Shown here: positions 977-11,611 of the stretch, piece by piece
How the letters are laid out: each line of letters begins with the position of its first letter
Position numbering within the stretch: the stretch's first letter is position 1
Origin: Betaproteobacteria bacterium
GTDB taxonomy: Bacteria > Pseudomonadota > Gammaproteobacteria > Burkholderiales > Burkholderiaceae_E
Assembly: GCA_016868375.1 (NCBI GenBank)
Contig: VGHA01000001.1
Span: 1-64,000, forward strand
DNA length: 64,000 nt
Direction of reading: 5' to 3'
Translations under genes and position numbers: made by a program
The notes under the pieces: generated by a model
What the model saw: only the letters and a program-made list of their open reading frames with translations
Databases searched by the model: none
Told to the model about the DNA's origin: nothing

Positions 977-1981
977 ATGCAGTTCACCCGTCGCGCAGCC
1001 CTTCTCGCCCTTGGCGCCAGCAGCCTCTCAGTATCTGGAACAGCGTTTGCTCAGGCAGGCACCGACCTGAAATTTGGCGCGATGCCGCTGGGCTCGATCT
1101 GGTATGTGTTTGCCGCAAGCGTCGCGAAACACGTGCAGCCTGCGCTGCCCGCAGGGTCCAAGGTTGACATCATCGCGCGCGGCGGCGGTATCGGAAACCC
1201 GATTCTGGTAAACGAAGGCAAGGCTGACGTCGCATTCGCCAATGTGATTACCTCGGTGTGGGCCATGAACGGCGAGGAGGAAATCTACAAAGGCAAGAAG
1301 TATCCGAACATTCGCGCCTTGCTGGGCGGCCTGAATGAAGTCTGGATCGCCGGGATGCTGACCGAGGACTACATTCGGCGCACCGGCAACGACGCGCTCG
1401 ATAAGGCGCTGCTCTCAAAGGACCCGCCGCGACTCATCATGAAGCCGGCCGGCAGCACGGTGCCGCCTTCGGTTCGGATCATCTTCGAGTCGTTGGGGCT
1501 CACGTTCGACAAGTACCGCGCGGCCGGCGGCCAGATCATTCAGATAGATGTCGGCCAGATTCCCAACATGATGCGAAACGGCCGTGCCGATCTTTATTTC
1601 GAAAGTGTTTCGCCAGGCCACCCTGCCACACAAGAGGTCACGCTCACAGTCCCGATGCGGTTTATGGACCTGCCCGACCGATCATTGAAGGCGCTCGCCC
1701 AAAACGGCCTCAAGGTGCATCCGCTACCCGCGTCGTTCAAGGGGCAGAACGGTCCGACCAAGGCGGCTGACTTCGGAACCAACATGATCGTCCATAAGGA
1801 CATGCCCGACGCGACGGCCTACGCGATTACCAAAGCGGTCATTGAGAACCGCGACGCGATCGTCGCCGAGAACAAGGCTATGGAGGGCTTCGTCGCCAAA
1901 GATGCCTGGCGCCCTGAAAACGTCGGCATCCCGCTGCATCCGGGCGCGATCCGCTATTACAAAGAACGCGGCTGGATGTGA
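977..1981 (+). CDS. TAXI-type TRAP transporter periplasmic substrate-binding protein
   Basis: A 334-residue exported receptor. The start at 977 is chosen over the longer ORF start at 902 because AGGGAG lies just upstream and it places a twin-arginine-like signal (TRRAALLALG, cleavage near AFAQA) at the N-terminus. The mature part begins with the LKFGAMPLGSIWYVFAAS pattern typical of TAXI receptors, then a GGGIGNPILVNEGKADVAFAN segment of the TRAP-associated extracytoplasmic fold. Its stop overlaps the start of the fused permease by four bases (GTGA), so receptor and permease are co-translated. It should capture a small organic acid in the periplasm; the ligand cannot be read from sequence. 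Confidence 0.92.
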   Translation: MQFTRRAALLALGASSLSVSGTAFAQAGTDLKFGAMPLGSIWYVFAASVAKHVQPALPAGSKVDIIARGGGIGNPILVNEGKADVAFANVITSVWAMNGEEEIYKGKKYPNIRALLGGLNEVWIAGMLTEDYIRRTGNDALDKALLSKDPPRLIMKPAGSTVPPSVRIIFESLGLTFDKYRAAGGQIIQIDVGQIPNMMRNGRADLYFESVSPGHPATQEVTLTVPMRFMDLPDRSLKALAQNGLKVHPLPASFKGQNGPTKAADFGTNMIVHKDMPDATAYAITKAVIENRDAIVAENKAMEGFVAKDAWRPENVGIPLHPGAIRYYKERGWM

Positions 1982-3822
1982 GTGCGCCGCTTGCCCGGCT
2001 GCTGAGCCCGCGGTTTCTGCTCGCACTCGTCTTCCTGCTGTTTCAGCTTTATCTGCTTGTCGAGCCGCTGCAGCAGGAGATCACCCTGCCGGTACATATC
2101 GGGCTGTCACTGCTGGCCGTGTTCGCCTGGGTGCCGGCGGGCAGCCAGCGATGGCACCGGGTTATCGATGGTTTGCTGCTTGCGGCCAGCGCGGCCGTCC
2201 TCGCCTACTACCTCATTGAGCTGCCGCGTCTGTCAGACAGAATGGAGAATGTCGACGATGTATTGAGCGTTGACCTGCTGTTTGGCTCACTGCTGCTGCT
2301 GGTGCTGATGGAGGCGGTTCGCCGGGTGGTGGGCTGGAGCCTGATCTGGGTGATTGCGGCGTTCGTTGCGTACTGTTTTCTCGGACCTTGGGCGCCCGGC
2401 TGGCTGTCTTTCCAGGGTTTCGAGTTTTCGTTGTTCATCGAAATCATGACAATGGCGTCGCACGGGGTGTTGGGGGTCACCACGCAAACCTCGGTCGATT
2501 TCGTCTGGTATTTCATATTGTTTGGCGTGGTGTATTCGGCCACTGGTGGCGGGCAGCTGTTCATTGACAGCGCGCTGCGGCTGGTTGGCCAACGCCGAGG
2601 CGGTGCGGCAAAGTCTGGAATTGTTGCCTCGGCGATGTTTGGAACCATCAGCGGCAGCGCGGTGGCCAATGTGGTGGCTACCGGAATCTTCACGATTCCT
2701 CTTATGAAGCGAACTGGCTACACCGCCGAGGAAGCGGGCGCGCACGAAGCAACTTCATCCACGGGCGGCCAACTGATGCCGCCGGTGATGGGCGTCGCCG
2801 CGTTCGTGATGGCCGAGCTGCTGGTTGTTCCGTACAGCCGAATCGCGTTGGCGGGGGTCATTCCCGCAGTCGCCTATTACTTCGCGCTTTACATGATCGT
2901 CGACCTGAAAGCACAGCGTCGTGGCATTGGAACCCTGGCTGCCAGCGACCTCGGCAGTATCGGCGCAATCGGGCCTCGCGCGCACATGTTCGCTTCGCCG
3001 CTGGTGTTGATTGCCATGCTTGCACTCGATTATTCAGCCCCGTTCGCAGCGCTGGTAGCATCGGGCGTGGCGCTCATCACTTGTTATTTTCGCAGAGAGT
3101 CGCGGCTATCACTGACCGGCTGGATCGACATGATCGAGGAAACAGCCCGTCAGGCGTCGCAGGTGGCCATTCCGATCATCGCGATCGGCATCATCATTGC
3201 CGTTGCAATTCAGTCGAACCTTGCGCTCAAGTTCTCAACACAGCTTATTTCGCTGTCAGGCGGCACGCTGATCGGCGCAATGCTCATGATCATTCTGGGC
3301 TGCATTGTGATGGGCATGGGCCTGCCCACGGTTGCGGCCTACATCATTGGTGCGATCCTGTTTGTTCCGGCAATGACCAAGCTTGGCGTCGATACGCTCG
3401 CAGCGCATTTCTTCGTGATGTATTACTGCGTGCTGTCGATGATCACACCGCCGGTCGCACTCGCTTCCTACGCGGCGGCAGGAATCGCCCAGGCCGACTC
3501 GATGAAAACCGGCTGGCTGGCTTTCAAGCTGTCCATGGTGTTGTTCCTGATTCCGTTCGCATTTGTCTTCGACCCATCCCTGCTCTGGAGTGGCGAGCCG
3601 CACTGGATCGCCTTGGCGTTCATCTCGGTGATGGCAGCCACCCACGCGTGGGCGGTCATGTTGGAAGGCTTTCTAAGACGGCCTCTCGGTATTCTGCTTC
3701 GCCTGGTATTCGGTGGCTTCGCGCTTGCGGTCCTGTTCTCGCCCACGGGCACACTTGCCTGGGGCATTGCGGCAGCCGGTCTGGCGATCACCCACCTGAC
3801 CTTGTGGGCGAAGTCGCGATGA
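1978..3822 (+). CDS. TRAP transporter fused permease (DctQM fusion, TAXI type)
   Basis: A 614-residue polytopic membrane protein whose length and order of segments fit the 4TM/12TM fused permease that partners TAXI receptors. The start is GTG at 1978, overlapping the receptor stop. Hydrophobic segments run almost throughout. The large-subunit core includes MFGTISGSAVANVVATGIFTIP and the ATSSTGGQLMPPVMG stretch, and a late MGLPTVAAYIIGA segment, all typical of the DctM-like ion-coupled domain. It uses an ion gradient to import the ligand delivered by the TAXI protein. The downstream lyase-like gene starts in its stop codon (ATGA), tying uptake to metabolism. Confidence 0.93.
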   Translation: MSAPLARLLSPRFLLALVFLLFQLYLLVEPLQQEITLPVHIGLSLLAVFAWVPAGSQRWHRVIDGLLLAASAAVLAYYLIELPRLSDRMENVDDVLSVDLLFGSLLLLVLMEAVRRVVGWSLIWVIAAFVAYCFLGPWAPGWLSFQGFEFSLFIEIMTMASHGVLGVTTQTSVDFVWYFILFGVVYSATGGGQLFIDSALRLVGQRRGGAAKSGIVASAMFGTISGSAVANVVATGIFTIPLMKRTGYTAEEAGAHEATSSTGGQLMPPVMGVAAFVMAELLVVPYSRIALAGVIPAVAYYFALYMIVDLKAQRRGIGTLAASDLGSIGAIGPRAHMFASPLVLIAMLALDYSAPFAALVASGVALITCYFRRESRLSLTGWIDMIEETARQASQVAIPIIAIGIIIAVAIQSNLALKFSTQLISLSGGTLIGAMLMIILGCIVMGMGLPTVAAYIIGAILFVPAMTKLGVDTLAAHFFVMYYCVLSMITPPVALASYAAAGIAQADSMKTGWLAFKLSMVLFLIPFAFVFDPSLLWSGEPHWIALAFISVMAATHAWAVMLEGFLRRPLGILLRLVFGGFALAVLFSPTGTLAWGIAAAGLAITHLTLWAKSR

Positions 3823-4937
3823 GCGCCGCGGGCCCGCCGCGCGCGGGGAAAGGCCAGCGCTGGCCTCGCGAATCGGCTGAATTCAATGATCCTGTCACGG
3901 GGCGCCCGGTGCGAAGGATTACGGCGCACCCGTCCATTCACCACCATCCGTTTTTCTTTGTACCGTGCTTTGATCGAGCAATGCAAAGGCTGATTCTGGT
4001 GTCGCATCGAACCGGCCGTGCCCAGCTGTTTGCCGAGGACCAGCTTAACGGCGAACTGGTGCAGCTTACCGATAGAGACGACCTGGCGGAGTGGTCGATT
4101 CACCCGTCATATGACGGGCGACATGTGTTCTTCACTGCCGGCACCAGTGCCTGGAAGCTTGATCTGGACACCCTTCAGGAAACCGAGCTGACCGGCTTCG
4201 GCCAGGTCGCGATGCGTGAACGCGGCATGGTTGGGGCTACGATGGGAACCACCGCCCTCTCGCATGACGACCGCTGGTGGGCGGTGCCCGTGCGGTCCGG
4301 TCCCATCACCTGTTTTCATCTGATTGACACCGAGCGAGGGGGCAGCCGCGTCTTTCTCGAGCGCGACACCATCGGACACCCACAGTTTCATCCCGACGAT
4401 TCCAACCTGATCTTTTTCGCCGGACCGCTCACTAACCGGATCTGGTGCACGACGCGCGATGGTGGGAACGTCTGGAACCCCTACCCACGCAATGATCTGC
4501 TCCAGTGGATCACGCATGAAATGTGGATACCGGGGACCCGCGAGCTGGCATTTGTTGACTGGCCCAACGGCATGCGGGCGGTCAATGTGGACACTGGGGC
4601 GTGCCGGTGGCTGACACGCTTTCCTGCGTGGCATGCAGCAATCGACCCCAGCGGCCAGCGCGCGGTGTGCGACACCACGTTTCCCGACCGTGGCATTCAC
4701 CTGATTGACCTCAACACGGGCGTCGCACGCCCGCTCTGTACGCCAGGCTCCAGCAACGCGGGAAGCCACTGGGGCGGCCCGTTTCCTTACAACAATGGTC
4801 CGGTGGAAGTGTATGCGCCCCAGCACACGCATCCGCATCCGCGCTTCTCGCCCGATGGCCGCAGAGTGATCTACACCTCCGACGCCGACGGATACGCCCA
4901 GTTGTATGAGTGTGATATTGATGAGGAGCCTGCTTGA
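3819..4937 (+). CDS. oligogalacturonate lyase-like seven-bladed beta-propeller protein
   Basis: The start is set at ATG 3819, which overlaps the permease stop as ATGA; the ORF track extends far upstream in a shadow frame. The 372-residue product has no signal peptide and aligns by eye with family 22 oligogalacturonate lyases. It opens with DPVTGRPVRRIT, has THEMWIPG near residue 231 where the family has its catalytic His, and near residue 334 carries QHTHPHPRFSPDG, matching the Q-x-x-H-x-H metal-binding motif. In characterised members these side chains hold Mn2+ and beta-eliminate unsaturated digalacturonate. No other pectin gene is nearby, so the true substrate may be a different uronide or acid brought in by the TAXI-TRAP system. 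Confidence 0.82.
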   Translation: MSAAGPPRAGKGQRWPRESAEFNDPVTGRPVRRITAHPSIHHHPFFFVPCFDRAMQRLILVSHRTGRAQLFAEDQLNGELVQLTDRDDLAEWSIHPSYDGRHVFFTAGTSAWKLDLDTLQETELTGFGQVAMRERGMVGATMGTTALSHDDRWWAVPVRSGPITCFHLIDTERGGSRVFLERDTIGHPQFHPDDSNLIFFAGPLTNRIWCTTRDGGNVWNPYPRNDLLQWITHEMWIPGTRELAFVDWPNGMRAVNVDTGACRWLTRFPAWHAAIDPSGQRAVCDTTFPDRGIHLIDLNTGVARPLCTPGSSNAGSHWGGPFPYNNGPVEVYAPQHTHPHPRFSPDGRRVIYTSDADGYAQLYECDIDEEPA

Positions 4938-5989
4938 TCAGCGCCCCAGCGGCCCAGCCGAAGCTCGATGTGTTCTCGCACATTTTTCCGCCCGCTTATT
5001 TTGAGCGGATGAAGGCGCTCGCGCGAGATCTTGGCGCCATCAAGCGCTGGCTCACGATTCCGGTGCTCTACGACCTCGGGGCGCGGCTGCGGATGATGGA
5101 TCAGTTCCCTGGCTATCAGCAGCTGCTGACGCTTTCCAATCCGCCCATCGAGATGGTTGCCGGCCCGAACGATTCACCGGCGCTCGCCCAACTCGCCAAT
5201 GACGGCATGGCTGAGATCGTCGATCAATACCCCGAACGCTTTCCCGGCTTCGTGGCGTCGCTGCCCATGAACCATATCCCGGCAGCACTGGACGAAATGG
5301 ACCGTGCGATTGAGCAGTTGGGAGCCTGCGGCATCCAGATTTACACCAACGTCAATGGCCGACCGCTGGATGACCCCGAGTTCTGGCCCATTTTCGAGCG
5401 TGCAGTGACGCGACACCAGGTCCCCATCTGGATGCACCCGGCGCGCGGCGCAGGTTTTCCTGACTACCTGACTGAGAAGAAATCGAAGTTCGAAATCTGG
5501 TGGACCTTTGGCTGGCCTTACGAAACCAGCGCAGCCATGACCCGCATGGTGTTCTCCGGATTTTTTGATCGCCTGCCTGATTTGAAGCTGATCACCCATC
5601 ATATGGGTGCAATGATTCCTTTCTTCGACGGTCGTATCGGGCCCGGGCTGGATCAGTTTGGCAGCCGCACGTCGGATGAGGACTATGAGGGGCTCTTGAA
5701 GCGCATGCCGCGCCGCCCAATCGACTATTTCCGCATGTTTTACGCCGACACGGCGCTGGCAGGGGGCAGTTCAGGTCTGCGCTGTGGGCTCGACTTTTTC
5801 GGGGTGGACCGCGTGTTGTTCGCATGCGATTGCCCATTCGACCCGGAAGGTGGCCCGATGTTCCTGCGCACCATTCCTGAAGCCATCGACTCGCTGGGGC
5901 TGTCTGACGAAGACCGCGGCAAGATTTATTTTGGCAATGCGATGAAGATGCTGCGGCTGCGACACCGCAGCAATGGTGCCGCCGGCTAG
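4934..5989 (+). CDS. amidohydrolase-2 (ACMSD-like) family protein
   Basis: A 351-residue cytoplasmic protein of the amidohydrolase family PF04909, which includes ACMSD and resorcylate decarboxylases. It starts with TTG at 4934, overlapping the previous stop as TTGA. Visible family signatures are DVFSHIFPP at the N-terminus, WMHPARG mid-protein, LKLITHHMGAMIPF and the late ACDCPFDPEGG that carries the catalytic Asp. The usual HxH pair after beta-strand 1 reads FSH here, so the first metal-binding His is a Phe. That suggests altered metal binding or a decarboxylase/hydrolase subfamily. Its place as fourth gene in a translational chain indicates it processes the transported compound. Confidence 0.85.
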   Translation: MISAPAAQPKLDVFSHIFPPAYFERMKALARDLGAIKRWLTIPVLYDLGARLRMMDQFPGYQQLLTLSNPPIEMVAGPNDSPALAQLANDGMAEIVDQYPERFPGFVASLPMNHIPAALDEMDRAIEQLGACGIQIYTNVNGRPLDDPEFWPIFERAVTRHQVPIWMHPARGAGFPDYLTEKKSKFEIWWTFGWPYETSAAMTRMVFSGFFDRLPDLKLITHHMGAMIPFFDGRIGPGLDQFGSRTSDEDYEGLLKRMPRRPIDYFRMFYADTALAGGSSGLRCGLDFFGVDRVLFACDCPFDPEGGPMFLRTIPEAIDSLGLSDEDRGKIYFGNAMKMLRLRHRSNGAAG

Positions 5990-6007: not shown

Positions 6008-6787
6008 ATGATTGACGTATCGGTTGACCAACCCGCGCGACGCGCCCGCCTGGCGATTCGCGAAGGGCGACATACCGGATCATCGCGCGGACTCGCAATG
6101 GGCTATGTCCAGTGCAATCTCGTCATCCTGCCGCGTCCTTACGCATTCGACTTCCTGCTCTACTGTCAACGCAACCCGCGTGCATGTCCGGTATTGGAAG
6201 TGACCGACCCGGGCAACCCCGAGCCGCAGCGTATTGCCCCCGGCGCAGATCTGCGCACCGATCTTGCGCGCTACACCGTGTGGCGAAACGGACAGCGTGA
6301 AGACGATCGACCTGACATCGGCTCACTGTGGCGCGATGACCTCGTAGCGTTTCTGATTGGCTCAGGCATCACCTTCGACCTGGCACTCGAGCGTGCGGGA
6401 GTTCCCACTGACCGCGACCGCTGGGTGCTGAACACCACGCTGCCCACCGAGGCGGCCGGGCCGTTCGCCGGTCCCCTGGTGGTCACCATGCGCTGGCTCA
6501 CCCCGGAGCAGGCCATCATCGCCACCCAGGTTTCGGCTCGGTTTCCATTCAACCACGGCGCACCGATCCATATTGGCGATCCGGCTGCGATTGGCGCAGA
6601 CCTCGCCCGGCCGCTGTTTGGCCCGCCGGTGGACCGGGTTCCAGCGGGACGCATCGCCGTATTCTGGGCCTGTGGCGTCACGCCCCAGGCCGCGGCTGAG
6701 AACGCGAGACCGGAACTCATGATCGCTCACGCACCTGCCCATAGTTTCATTACGGACCTGCTCGCGGACCGCTTCTGTCAGCCGTAG
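6008..6787 (+). CDS. DUF1445 (D-glutamate cyclase / YcsI-like) putative hydro-lyase
   Basis: A 259-residue protein with the clear DUF1445 pattern: GLAMGYVQCNLVILP near residue 30, DFLLYCQRNPRACPVLEV, DLRTDLARYTVW, DLVAFLIGSG, FNHGAPIHIGDP and the strongly conserved VFWACGVTPQAA, then a final HAPAHSFITD. Members have been called putative hydro-lyases, and the mammalian homologue acts as D-glutamate cyclase. It lies 18 bases after the amidohydrolase and continues the same plus-strand run, so a dehydratase-like step in the TAXI-linked pathway is plausible. Substrate assignment is inference. Confidence 0.88.
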   Translation: MIDVSVDQPARRARLAIREGRHTGSSRGLAMGYVQCNLVILPRPYAFDFLLYCQRNPRACPVLEVTDPGNPEPQRIAPGADLRTDLARYTVWRNGQREDDRPDIGSLWRDDLVAFLIGSGITFDLALERAGVPTDRDRWVLNTTLPTEAAGPFAGPLVVTMRWLTPEQAIIATQVSARFPFNHGAPIHIGDPAAIGADLARPLFGPPVDRVPAGRIAVFWACGVTPQAAAENARPELMIAHAPAHSFITDLLADRFCQP

Positions 6788-7802: not shown

Positions 7803-8696
7803 TTAGCAGGCGCTGCGAACGTGTCGCACTACCTGGGCATGGGTGGCGAACCAGGCACCGCCCAGCGAGCGCGCGTGACGGATCAACTCTTCGATGATCC
7901 ACATCCTTGATCGATACCCGATCATGTGGGGGTGCATTGTCAATTGGAACAGACCGCCCTCCCGAGACGCCGCCTCCAGCTCGCGCCGAAAGATGTCGAA
8001 CACCGCCTCGGGGGGCGTGTAGGGGCGCAGGCCACTGAATCGATTCATGTTGAAGTACACCGCGTCGTCTCGCATCCACTCCACTGGCAGTTCGATGACG
8101 CCGGTGGGCTCGCCGTCCAGCAATAGCTCGTAACAGTCAACGTCAGCCATGAGCGACGAGTCATACTCAAGCCCCATCTCGCGGGTAATGGCGAGCGTGT
8201 TGGGGCTGAAGTCCCAGGAAGGGGTTCGGATTCCTACCGGGCGAACGCCCGTAATGGTCTCCAGGGTGTCAGCACTTCGAAGCATCAGGTCGCGCTCGGC
8301 GGCCTCTGGCAATACCGAATTGCGTTCGTGAATCCAGCCGTGAATTCCAATCTCATGGCCGGCGGCGACCACTGCGCGCTGCTCTTCCGGATAGAGCAGC
8401 GCGGTAACGGCGGGCACATAGAAACTCGCCGGGACCCCCTCTCGCTCGAGCGTTGCAAGGATGCGGGGCACGCCCTGCCGCGCGCCATACTGACCGTGCG
8501 ACAACTTGCCAATGGATTCGCCGCCGTCTCGCAGCTCGTTGGTCTCGTGGTCGGAGTCGAAAGACAGCGCAACAGCGAATCGCGCCCCATTTGGCCAGCT
8601 CGCGGGCTTGAAGCTGCGGCCCGCCCGCACGCGATTCACCAGCCCCCGCCAATGAGACTCAGGCCACTGCCACGGTTCAAGCGCGGGCGTATTCAC
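7803..8696 (-). CDS. polysaccharide deacetylase-family (CE4 / PuuE-like) hydrolase
   Basis: A 297-residue protein with the NodB-homology fold. ALSFDSDHETNEL holds the early Asp pair, HEIGIHGWIHERN the metal-binding His pair (H-x3-H), GIRTPSWDFSPNTL the RxPxW catalytic motif, and LTMHPHMIGYRSR the closing His. There is no signal peptide, so it likely acts in the cytoplasm on a small amide, as allantoinase-type PuuE enzymes do, rather than on a polymer. The start is GTG at 8696, preceded by CAGGAG. It is transcribed divergently from the alpha/beta hydrolase at 8933. Confidence 0.85.
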   Translation of the reverse strand: MNTPALEPWQWPESHWRGLVNRVRAGRSFKPASWPNGARFAVALSFDSDHETNELRDGGESIGKLSHGQYGARQGVPRILATLEREGVPASFYVPAVTALLYPEEQRAVVAAGHEIGIHGWIHERNSVLPEAAERDLMLRSADTLETITGVRPVGIRTPSWDFSPNTLAITREMGLEYDSSLMADVDCYELLLDGEPTGVIELPVEWMRDDAVYFNMNRFSGLRPYTPPEAVFDIFRRELEAASREGGLFQLTMHPHMIGYRSRMWIIEELIRHARSLGGAWFATHAQVVRHVRSAC

Positions 8697-8932
8697 TTAA
8701 ACGCTCCTGATACAGGGTTCTGTCCCCACCTACCCGTTTCTGCGGTCGCCGCGCGAACCATGGAAGCTCCCTTTAATCCCTTGGACACACCGACAATAGC
8801 TTAGCAATGAGCCCAGCACCGCGTCTAACTGACGCGCCGCTGAAATACGCGCTGGACCAACTGGAATGAATCCATTACAACTGCGGTTGACATGCCCCGT
8901 CGCAGGACACCTCACCCCACCGCAAACGCTAC
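8697..8932. other. divergent intergenic region
   Basis: These 236 bases separate two divergently transcribed enzyme genes and must contain both promoters. A short dyad GCGTC-taact-GACGC lies at 8821-8835, and a TTGACA-like hexamer precedes the plus-strand gene near 8886 without a convincing -10 partner. I see no small ORF or RNA gene in it. Confidence 0.5.
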
Positions 8933-9706
8933 ATGACGCTTCACACGGCGCTGGAAGGAACCGGCCCGAGACTCGCCCTGCTGCATCCGGTGGGGCTGCA
9001 CGGGGGGTTTCTTCAGCCGATTTCCCACAGACTTTCTAACCGATTTCAGGTTCTGCGCATCGACCTGCGCGGCCACGGCGCATCACCATTGGATCCGCCT
9101 TCGCTCACGATGGCTGAATTCGCCGATGATGTTCATCAGACCCTGCACCAGGCGGGATTTGCTCCCTGCGCGGTTGCGGGTTTTTCATTTGGATCGATGG
9201 TCGCGCAAGAGCTGGCGATTCAACATCCGGCCGATGTGTCTGCGCTGATTGCCCTTGCAGGCCCTTGCAGCTGGGACGCTCAGCAGCGCGCCGCGATCGC
9301 AGCGCGTGGAACCGATGCGCTGGCCAAGGGCATGGAAGCGGTCGTGGATGCAACCATGGCGCGATGGTTCACGCCAGGGTTTCGTCAAAGCAGGCAGGCT
9401 CTTGAAGCGCGCAACACGCTGCTTCAGCGCGATCCGCAAGGCTGGGCGCGTGCATGGCAGGCAATCTCTGAACTGGATACCGAGGCGAGGCTGCGCGGTC
9501 TGCGAATACCCGCGCTCTGCGTCGCAGGCGAGTGTGATGTGTCGGCGACGCCTGAGGCGGTACGCCGAATCGCAGCCGCAATTCCGGGCGCACGCTACGC
9601 AGCGCTTTCAAGCGCCCCTCACATGCTCTTCATTGAGCAGCCCGAAGCGGTCGCGGCACTGATTGCGCAGTTTTTGGGTGAACTGAACCTTCCCCGCCTG
9701 GACTGA
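8933..9706 (+). CDS. alpha/beta fold hydrolase (3-oxoadipate enol-lactonase-like)
   Basis: A 257-residue cytoplasmic alpha/beta hydrolase. LALLHPVGLHGGF gives the HG oxyanion region, RIDLRGHGASP the conserved DxRGHG turn, and CAVAGFSFGSMVAQELA near residue 83-97 the nucleophile GFSFGS. GECDVSATPEA matches the catalytic Asp position and SSAPHMLFIEQPEAV the catalytic His. The pattern is close to PcaD-type enol-lactonases and related ester or lactone hydrolases. It stands alone on its strand between minus-strand genes, 9 bases from the convergent metallo-hydrolase. Confidence 0.85.
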   Translation: MTLHTALEGTGPRLALLHPVGLHGGFLQPISHRLSNRFQVLRIDLRGHGASPLDPPSLTMAEFADDVHQTLHQAGFAPCAVAGFSFGSMVAQELAIQHPADVSALIALAGPCSWDAQQRAAIAARGTDALAKGMEAVVDATMARWFTPGFRQSRQALEARNTLLQRDPQGWARAWQAISELDTEARLRGLRIPALCVAGECDVSATPEAVRRIAAAIPGARYAALSSAPHMLFIEQPEAVAALIAQFLGELNLPRLD

Positions 9707-9715
9707 TTTGGCCGC

Positions 9716-10618
9716 CTAGCAGCCAACGCAGCGAAAACGCATTCGGCCGCCGGCAGCGCTCTCGACCACACCCGACGTTGGTGACGGAAAATGTGAGGCG
9801 AACAACAGCGTGCCGCTGTCGCACGCGTGGTTGAGCAGCCCTTCACGACACTCGGCCGATTGGGCCGCGTCCTCACAGAAGCGCGACGACCACTGCGGCA
9901 ACGCGATCTGAACCGGCGTGTGGATGACATCCCCGGTGAGCAGGGCCCGCTTCCCCCCGCTCTGCACCGCAATCACGCTGTTGCCCGGTGTGTGACCCGG
10001 TGCGGCATCGATGCGCAGGCCCGCACACACGTCATGTCCAGCGCCAACCAGCTCGGCGCGACCGGCTTCCATAACGGGCAGTACGCTGTCGGCGAACGAC
10101 CCGTGGTTGGTAGCGGGCCCACCCGTTGCGAGCGCCTCCCGATGCGCACGCTCCCAGAATTCATATTCAGCGCGTGAAAACAGATAGCGTGCCCTGGGAA
10201 AGGTCGGTACCCAGCGCCCGTCCCTGAGCACCGTGTTCCAACCCACGTGGTCTGCATGCAGATGCGTGCATAACACCACATCGATATCGGCGGGCGACAG
10301 CCCAAGCGCGGCCAGCTGATCAAGATATGCCGACGACTGCCGCCTGTGCCAGCTCTCACGGTTCGGCCGTTCCTTGTCGTTTCCGACACAGCCATCCACC
10401 AGCACCGTGAGACGACCGGTTCTGATGACGAAACTTTGAAAGCTCATGACGAGGCTGTCATCAGCGGTTAGAAACTGCGGCCGCAACCAGTCATCGGCCT
10501 GCGCGGCTGCGAGGACTGCAGGATCAAAGCCTGGCATCAGCATGGAAGCAGGCGCAAACGCCCCCTCCGACTCCACCACGCGGTCGATCCTGAATTCACC
10601 GAGGGTCTGCGTTACCAT
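9716..10618 (-). CDS. metallo-beta-lactamase-fold hydrolase
   Basis: A 300-residue MBL-fold enzyme. The start is placed at ATG 10618, preceded by AAGGAG, rather than at the ORF-track start 297 bases upstream that reads through the divergent gene. CTHLHADHVGWN around the middle is the HxHxDH zinc motif. AAPGHTPGNSVIAVQSG gives the next His, LLTGDVIHTP the bridging Asp, and FASHFPSP the last His. This is the usual order for binuclear lactonase/esterase-type MBL hydrolases. The neighbours are small-amide or ester hydrolases, so it may hydrolyse a pathway lactone; its substrate is not evident. Confidence 0.87.
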   Translation of the reverse strand: MVTQTLGEFRIDRVVESEGAFAPASMLMPGFDPAVLAAAQADDWLRPQFLTADDSLVMSFQSFVIRTGRLTVLVDGCVGNDKERPNRESWHRRQSSAYLDQLAALGLSPADIDVVLCTHLHADHVGWNTVLRDGRWVPTFPRARYLFSRAEYEFWERAHREALATGGPATNHGSFADSVLPVMEAGRAELVGAGHDVCAGLRIDAAPGHTPGNSVIAVQSGGKRALLTGDVIHTPVQIALPQWSSRFCEDAAQSAECREGLLNHACDSGTLLFASHFPSPTSGVVESAAGGRMRFRCVGC

Positions 10619-10699
10619 CAAAGCTCCTTGTTGTTCAATCGTGGCCTGCTGGCGCTGCGCCTGGCACGGGAGGCCGCTTTCATCATTACAGGATGCCTC

Positions 10700-11611
10700 A
10701 TGCATTATCCCTGGTCTGCTGCGCCAACGCGCAAACCGATTCACTGGCCCGATGGCAAGCGCCTCGCGGTCATCATCACCATGAACTGCGAATACTGGGA
10801 TCTGACCAAGCCTGGGTCGGAGCCGTATTACGCCGGTGGACCACCGATGTTGCCCGACCCGTTGCCGGGCAATGTCGCAGACTTCCCGAACTTCACCTGG
10901 CGCGAATACGGCCAACGCGTCGGCGTGTGGCGACTTTTCCGCCTTTTTGAAGAGGCGGGCGTACCGATGTCATTGACGATGAACGCCAAGATGGGGCTTG
11001 AGCGACCCGAGGTGATTCGCTGGGGCCTCGATCGAAACTGGGAAATCGTCGCGCACAACTATGAGCAAGGCGAACTCCTCACGCGCTACACCTTTGACCC
11101 CGCAGCAGAGCGGGAGCTGATCAAGCGCACGCTTGAGGTGTACCAGCAGGTCTGCGGTCGCAAGGCGCGTGGCTGGCTGTCGTCATCGCTACGCAGCACC
11201 CCCAACACGCCAGACATTCTCGCGGAGAATGGGCTGCTGTTTTTCTGCGACTACATGAACGATGATCAGCCGTACCTGATCAACACGCCCTCGGGCCCCA
11301 TCGTGAATGTTCCCTACACCATCGAGGTCAACGACTTCACCTTCTTCCATCGGCGAGCGATGACCACGTGGGATGCGGCGCGCATGTTGAAGGACCAGTT
11401 TGACGAGCTGTATCGGGAAGGCGCTGAGAGCGCACGATTGATGAATATCGGGCTGCACCCGCATGTTTCCGGTCACCCGCACCGGATGCCCTGCTTTCGC
11501 GAGTTTCTCGCCCATGCGAAGAGCCGGTCGGATGTATGGTGGGCCACCCGGGAGCAGGTCGCAGAGTGGTATCTGAAGAACTGCCGCGACCATATCGCGG
11601 GCCAGGGCTGA
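10700..11611 (+). CDS. second polysaccharide deacetylase-family (PuuE-like) hydrolase
   Basis: A 303-residue CE4-fold protein. I start it at ATG 10700 (MHYPWSAAP), because the longer ORF start at 10628 sits only 9 bases from the divergent MBL start. The N-terminus has the LAVIITMNCEYWD stretch, and later come WEIVAHNYEQGE, RGWLSSSLRSTPNTPDIL and NIGLHPHVSGHPHRM. The canonical acidic pair of strand 1 reads NCEYWD and the H-x3-H reads HNYEQ, so metal ligands are atypical. Such variants occur in allantoinase-like and uncharacterised amidohydrolysing members. It differs clearly from the 7803-8696 protein, so the locus has two non-duplicate deacetylase-fold enzymes. Confidence 0.82.
   Translation: MHYPWSAAPTRKPIHWPDGKRLAVIITMNCEYWDLTKPGSEPYYAGGPPMLPDPLPGNVADFPNFTWREYGQRVGVWRLFRLFEEAGVPMSLTMNAKMGLERPEVIRWGLDRNWEIVAHNYEQGELLTRYTFDPAAERELIKRTLEVYQQVCGRKARGWLSSSLRSTPNTPDILAENGLLFFCDYMNDDQPYLINTPSGPIVNVPYTIEVNDFTFFHRRAMTTWDAARMLKDQFDELYREGAESARLMNIGLHPHVSGHPHRMPCFREFLAHAKSRSDVWWATREQVAEWYLKNCRDHIAGQG

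Follow-up and report, generated by a model that had tools for sequence, protein, structure and literature searches.

The operon and its genes

The first 64,000 bases of contig C1 (VGHA01000001.1), referred to here as the window, belong to a draft betaproteobacterial genome of 390 contigs that is 97.4% complete and 7.5% contaminated. Between positions 977 and 6787, the forward strand carries an operon of five genes, which encode a TAXI-family TRAP solute-binding protein, a fused TRAP permease, a beta-propeller resembling the oligogalacturonate lyases (OGLs) of family PL22, an Amidohydro_2 protein, and a DUF1445/D-Glu_cyclase protein (Table 1). The propeller, called the lyase below, is the focus of this analysis.

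The original prediction described four-base overlaps at the junctions of the first four genes, and these can be read directly in the sequence as GTGA between the TAXI and permease genes (1978-1981), ATGA between the permease and propeller genes (3819-3822), and TTGA between the propeller and amidohydrolase genes (4934-4937). The range it gave (1978-5989) omits the TAXI gene, which starts at 977, and the DUF1445 gene, both of which are part of the operon. For the amidohydrolase, a TTG start is plausible, since GAGGAG lies immediately 5′ of it and the next in-frame ATG, at 5009, would cut off the D-x-F-x-H segment. No signal peptide was seen in the propeller protein.

Table 1. Genes of the operon and diagnostic residues of the propeller, in window coordinates
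Feature	Position	Strand	Properties
TAXI-family TRAP solute-binding protein	977..1981	+	334 aa; ATG start; signal-peptide-like N-terminus; TIGR02122 114 bits (cut-off 84)
Fused TRAP permease	1978..3822	+	614 aa; GTG start within TAXI stop; TIGR02123 530 bits (cut-off 321)
PL22-type (oligogalacturonate lyase-like) beta-propeller	3819..4937	+	372 aa; PF14583 Pectate_lyase22 61.2 bits (gathering cut-off 30)
HHHPFF motif (residues 41-46), in place of true-OGL CHRNYF	3939..3956	+	HHHPF invariant in 68/68 clade members
Arg207, equivalent to YeOGL Arg217	4437..4439	+	invariant in 68/68
His233 in THEMWIP, equivalent to YeOGL His242	4515..4517	+	invariant in 68/68
His272, equivalent to YeOGL His287	4632..4634	+	invariant in 68/68
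QHTHPH (residues 335-340); Gln335, His338, His340 equivalent to YeOGL Gln350, His353, His355	4821..4838	+	Gln and first ligand His in 68/68, last His in 67/68
Amidohydro_2 (COG2159-like) protein	4934..5989	+	351 aa; TTG start; PF04909 119 bits (cut-off 26)
D-Glu_cyclase/DUF1445 protein	6008..6787	+	18 bases past amidohydrolase; PF07286 126 bits

The propeller and its departures from oligogalacturonate lyases

By its profile match and predicted fold, the propeller is a member of PL22. A search of solved-structure sequences returned 3pe7, the Mn-bound OGL structure (YeOGL), with an E-value of 1e-16. The AlphaFold2 model of the propeller (predicted local distance difference test, pLDDT, 86; predicted template modelling score, pTM, 0.86) was compared with the PDB using Foldseek, which placed it closest to the OGLs 3pe7 (template modelling score, TM, 0.82) and 3c5m (VpOGL; TM 0.80), followed by TolB at 0.45. 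The YeOGL positions Arg217, His242, His287, Gln350, His353, and His355 were located by counting along the 3pe7 sequence; we take Arg217 to be the catalytic arginine, His242 the catalytic base, and the remaining four the Mn ligands. Equivalents of all six are present in the window protein, and both segments singled out in the original prediction, the Q-x-x-H-x-H motif and THEMWIP, are indeed kept.

A scan of species genomes yielded 71 loci, with a sample biased toward relatives that share the query's conserved peptides and records that are mostly metagenome-assembled genomes. The 68 complete or near-complete sequences placed in a tree, including that of the window, form one clade with a support of 99, obtained by a quick method on a tree with long internal branches. 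The clade carries the six catalytic and metal-binding residues and spans Proteobacteria to Chloroflexi, Poribacteria, and Paenibacillus. Retention of Q-x-x-H-x-H in the clade is not automatic, since the PL22-like proteins of a second, distant group (L106-L109) have lost the metal set, displaying R-x-x-E-x-N in its place and keeping the H242 equivalent. The window propeller differs from the clade at only 3 of 92 conserved sites, which argues that it is under constraint and led to the rejection of decay as an explanation for it. In comparison with the lyase of the Burkholderiales locus L025, its ratio of nonsynonymous to synonymous substitution rates (dN/dS) is 0.146, with a dN above that of the neighbouring genes.

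Around this core, the clade is only about 20-28% identical to OGLs. Positions invariant in 11 true OGLs were compared with positions invariant in the clade, and the swaps include R35H, N36P, Y37F, F56R, G85S, F158W, S239W, Y257W, and C285W. The other residues that mark true OGLs are missing from the clade as well: CHRNYF is exchanged for the motif given in Table 1, OGL residues 207-208 (HE) and 211-213 (HDL) of the HEGPHDL loop are deleted clade-wide, and the W124-W130 region is replaced or deleted throughout. The retention of the chemical core within rebuilt surroundings is therefore consistent with a different substrate, and the name "oligogalacturonate lyase" should not be applied to this propeller prematurely.

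The host assembly contains no match to KduI (PF04962), GH28 (PF00295), PL1 (PF00544), or UxaC (PF02614). Thus, the absence of pectin genes noted in the original prediction extends genome-wide for these four families, and a pectin route elsewhere in the host genome was rejected on the same search. A KduI-family gene is likewise absent in 31 of 50 carrier genomes, including all 18 tested among L025-L044. The OGL of a Rahnella megaplasmid used for comparison (L023) adjoins a cupin gene and kduD. In the interpretation favoured here, the imported acid is not pectin-derived digalacturonate.

Cassettes in other genomes

Partner genes were counted by tblastn in 67 loci, of which 29 contain a TAXI gene, 29 a permease gene, 7 a TauABC-like binding protein gene, and 10 an Opp system. 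Among possible downstream enzymes, DapA-type proteins occur in 30 loci, DUF1445 in 23 (65-82% identity), HyuA in 18, and HyuB in 19; a close copy of the window-type amidohydrolase was found in only five, so a fixed lyase-amidohydrolase pair was rejected as a general rule. The lyase starts at the permease stop in 27 of the 29 other TAXI-TRAP loci, and this arrangement is therefore not due to chance. The window's five-gene order recurs in L025 and in L034 (Roseomonas AR75). A survey of TAXI and PL22-like synteny had been proposed in the original prediction; it shows the pairing in 29 other loci and linkage to acid importers in several phyla. A literature search of open-licence papers found none joining PL22-like enzymes with TAXI systems.

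Elsewhere, the importers beside the lyase are TauABC-, Opp-, or TTT-like, and the importer type switches five times on the lyase tree. Within one Rhizobiales group, otherwise similar loci possess TAXI-TRAP in L040, L053, and L091, whereas L031 and L037 use a TauABC-like importer. The lyase is the constant element of these cassettes and the importer varies.

Glutamate, 2-oxoglutarate, and o-phthalate are among the small acids that TAXI-TRAP systems carry (PMC12344293). In VcGluP, glutamate binding is carried by a Tyr (Y45) and a Gln (Q93), which have equivalents in 78% and 54%, respectively, of the TAXIs covered by the same study (PMC11574862). The window TAXI contains W and N at these positions and so falls outside the glutamate group defined by Tyr and Gln; the same W and N are found in all 28 readable cassette TAXIs and in those of congeners. 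At these positions, 19 paralogous TAXIs from related genomes have Tyr in 11 cases and Gln in 5. The pocket residues suggest that the cassette TAXIs probably share a ligand that is probably not glutamate. TAXI or related binding proteins are greatly expanded in the host genome, which has 24 TAXI-profile matches.

The amidohydrolase is not a typical partner of the lyase, as DapA-type, DUF1445, and HyuAB proteins are more common. DUF1445 is the best-conserved cassette partner of the window's genes and in most cases exceeds the importer or the lyase in conservation. The nearest curated families of the DapA-type partner are NanA and DapA, and that of HyuAB is caprolactamase, all below cut-off; in the host genome, the only DapA-type relative is a distant one (34% identity). 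Regulators also differ between cassettes, being IclR-type (nearest PcaR/PobR) or LacI-type, and the roseobacter cassette consists only of LacI-DapA-TAXI-TRAP-lyase. DapA-type (30/60 loci) and HyuAB (20/60 loci) partners never co-occur among L025-L091 (hypergeometric 7e-9). This exclusion was rejected as proof of interchangeable steps because the tree offers only one or two informative independent pairs and ancestry could explain it.

Outside the operon, a DUF3501 gene (173-769) lies upstream of the TAXI gene and holds the same position in the congener locus L007. Downstream, positions 7803-11611 encode two polysaccharide-deacetylase/PuuE-like proteins and a lactonase-like protein of the metallo-beta-lactamase fold.

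Proposed reaction and comparison with known systems

Because the catalytic set is kept, OGL-specific residues are changed, pectin genes are absent, and the linkage to importers recurs, the propeller is best read as an enzyme that performs beta-elimination on an acid that is imported and does not come from pectin. It is thus proposed, with somewhat more confidence than doubt, that an uncharacterised PL22 subfamily in widespread cassettes carries out the beta-elimination of such an acid and that the lyase step is optional in the host genus. The analysis itself shows the gene order, the predicted fold, the conserved residues, the synteny, the lack of pectin genes, and the loss of the lyase in congeners, whereas the metal, the chemistry, the direction of flow, and the substrate class are what we infer. 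First, TAXI-TRAP would bring in an organic acid, which is probably not glutamate. Once the acid is in the cytoplasm, the propeller would bind its carboxylate through a metal, by analogy Mn2+, coordinated by His272, Gln335, His338, and His340, and His233 would abstract the proton next to the carboxylate. The beta-oxygen substituent would leave, forming an unsaturated or alpha-keto acid, and breakdown would be completed by the amidohydrolase and DUF1445 protein in the window and by a DapA-type aldolase or HyuAB elsewhere. By chemical reasoning, an alpha-keto acid product fits a DapA-type aldolase.

The recurrence of the importer-lyase pairing in distant bacteria makes an uncharacterised breakdown route likely. 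A bolder version, offered tentatively and with less than even confidence, is that an undescribed PL22 subfamily founds a separate catabolic route across about six phyla. In this route, a small sugar-acid or aryl-ether acid would be imported and lose a beta-substituent through the action of the metal-dependent propeller; importers would be interchangeable, and either a DapA-type aldolase or HyuAB would serve as the downstream module.

Several observations weigh against beta-elimination of a non-pectin acid as a general account. Conservation of catalytic residues is no proof of the same reaction. The partners of the lyase vary by lineage, with a sugar-acid dehydratase and Gfo in Chloroflexi and caprolactamase-like HyuAB in Rhizobiales, which suggests different chemistries. 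KduI-family genes are often present elsewhere in the genomes of roseobacter, Chloroflexi, and Paenibacillus carriers, but PF04962 also takes in other members, such as IolB. Lastly, all three congeners that bear the operon retain only lyase remnants of differing extents: residues 67-135 and 208-295 in G036 (L007), with stops present and THEMW changed to TREMW, residues 343-369 in G037 (L018), and residues 328-369 in G039 (L008). The flanking TAXI, permease, amidohydrolase, and DUF1445 genes are intact, 83-90% identical to those of the window, and have dN/dS values of 0.04-0.08, which are rough since synonymous sites are near saturation. A fourth congener, G038, has no close match to the lyase or the amidohydrolase. 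Thus, the transporter and later enzymes have been kept without the lyase in this genus. It may be that the lyase acts on a conjugate of the imported acid and the other genes on the acid in its free form; alternatively, the route is on the way to being dismantled. The original prediction of a beta-eliminating lyase coupled to uptake of a non-pectin acid is accordingly supported in part: such an enzyme, linked to importers in several phyla, is the favoured reading, whereas "coupled" is too strong within the genus.

The alternative that survives best, though it is rather unlikely, is that the OGL machinery acts on a monomeric acid as an epimerase, lactonase, or dehydratase, or by some other proton abstraction assisted by a metal, and not as a polysaccharide-type lyase. 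The small acids carried by TAXI-TRAP systems (PMC12344293), the sparse roseobacter cassette, and the changed OGL-specific residues all agree with this. However, every residue needed for elimination is kept, and sequence cannot separate such an activity from beta-elimination. It is also unlikely that the lyase is a leftover on its way out of the genus, with TAXI-TRAP, amidohydrolase, and DUF1445 as the functional unit. The remnants of varied length beside constrained neighbours favour this explanation, as does the higher dN of the lyase relative to its neighbours against L025, but the window lyase is full length, has all catalytic residues, departs from so few conserved sites, and overlaps tightly with the genes on both sides. 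Highly improbable is an ordinary OGL that scavenges fragments of pectin or of other galacturonides while the remaining route lies elsewhere in the genome, for which the PF14583 match above cut-off, the same fold, and the complete catalytic set are outweighed by the low identity, the clade-wide replacement or deletion of R35, N36, HE(207-208), HDL(211-213), and the W124-W130 region, and the lack of KduI, UxaC, GH28, and PL1 in the host and of KduI in the 18 carriers above.

Confirmation of beta-elimination of a non-pectin acid would show that the active site of PL22 has found a new use on another acid and that proteins matching "oligogalacturonate lyase" are wrongly being taken for pectin genes. 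The TAXI ligands known so far are few, and the cassette ties a TAXI group with a W/N signature to one enzyme family of known catalytic mechanism in several phyla; the ligand search can therefore proceed from both ends.

Each component of the operon resembles a known system in part. The DUF1445 protein has a full match to the D-glutamate cyclase/DUF1445 domain (PF07286) but scores below the cut-off of the NCBIfam "putative hydro-lyase" PRK05463 (296 vs 324 bits). With the COG2159 amidohydrolases, including 3ij6, its nearest solved structure, and the decarboxylases ACMSD and LigW, the window amidohydrolase shares the Amidohydro_2 family, the second metal-site His, two further His, and the Asp. 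However, its HxH site reads D-V-F-S-H and so does not match the metal motif of ACMSD-type amidohydrolases/decarboxylases: Phe replaces the first His, a position occupied by Phe or Trp in close cassette copies and by Tyr in 3ij6, and the metal site or chemistry may be unusual as a result. The TAXI binding protein and fused permease are common to the TAXI-TRAP systems for glutamate (VcGluP), 2-oxoglutarate (Proteus), and o-phthalate (Azoarcus), whereas every readable cassette TAXI carries W and N where VcGluP has its two glutamate-critical residues. The propeller, finally, shares with YeOGL and VpOGL the fold (TM 0.82), the catalytic base, and the metal-ligand residues, yet at 20-28% identity its OGL-specific residues are swapped, the pectin pathway is absent, and its gene adjoins acid importers.

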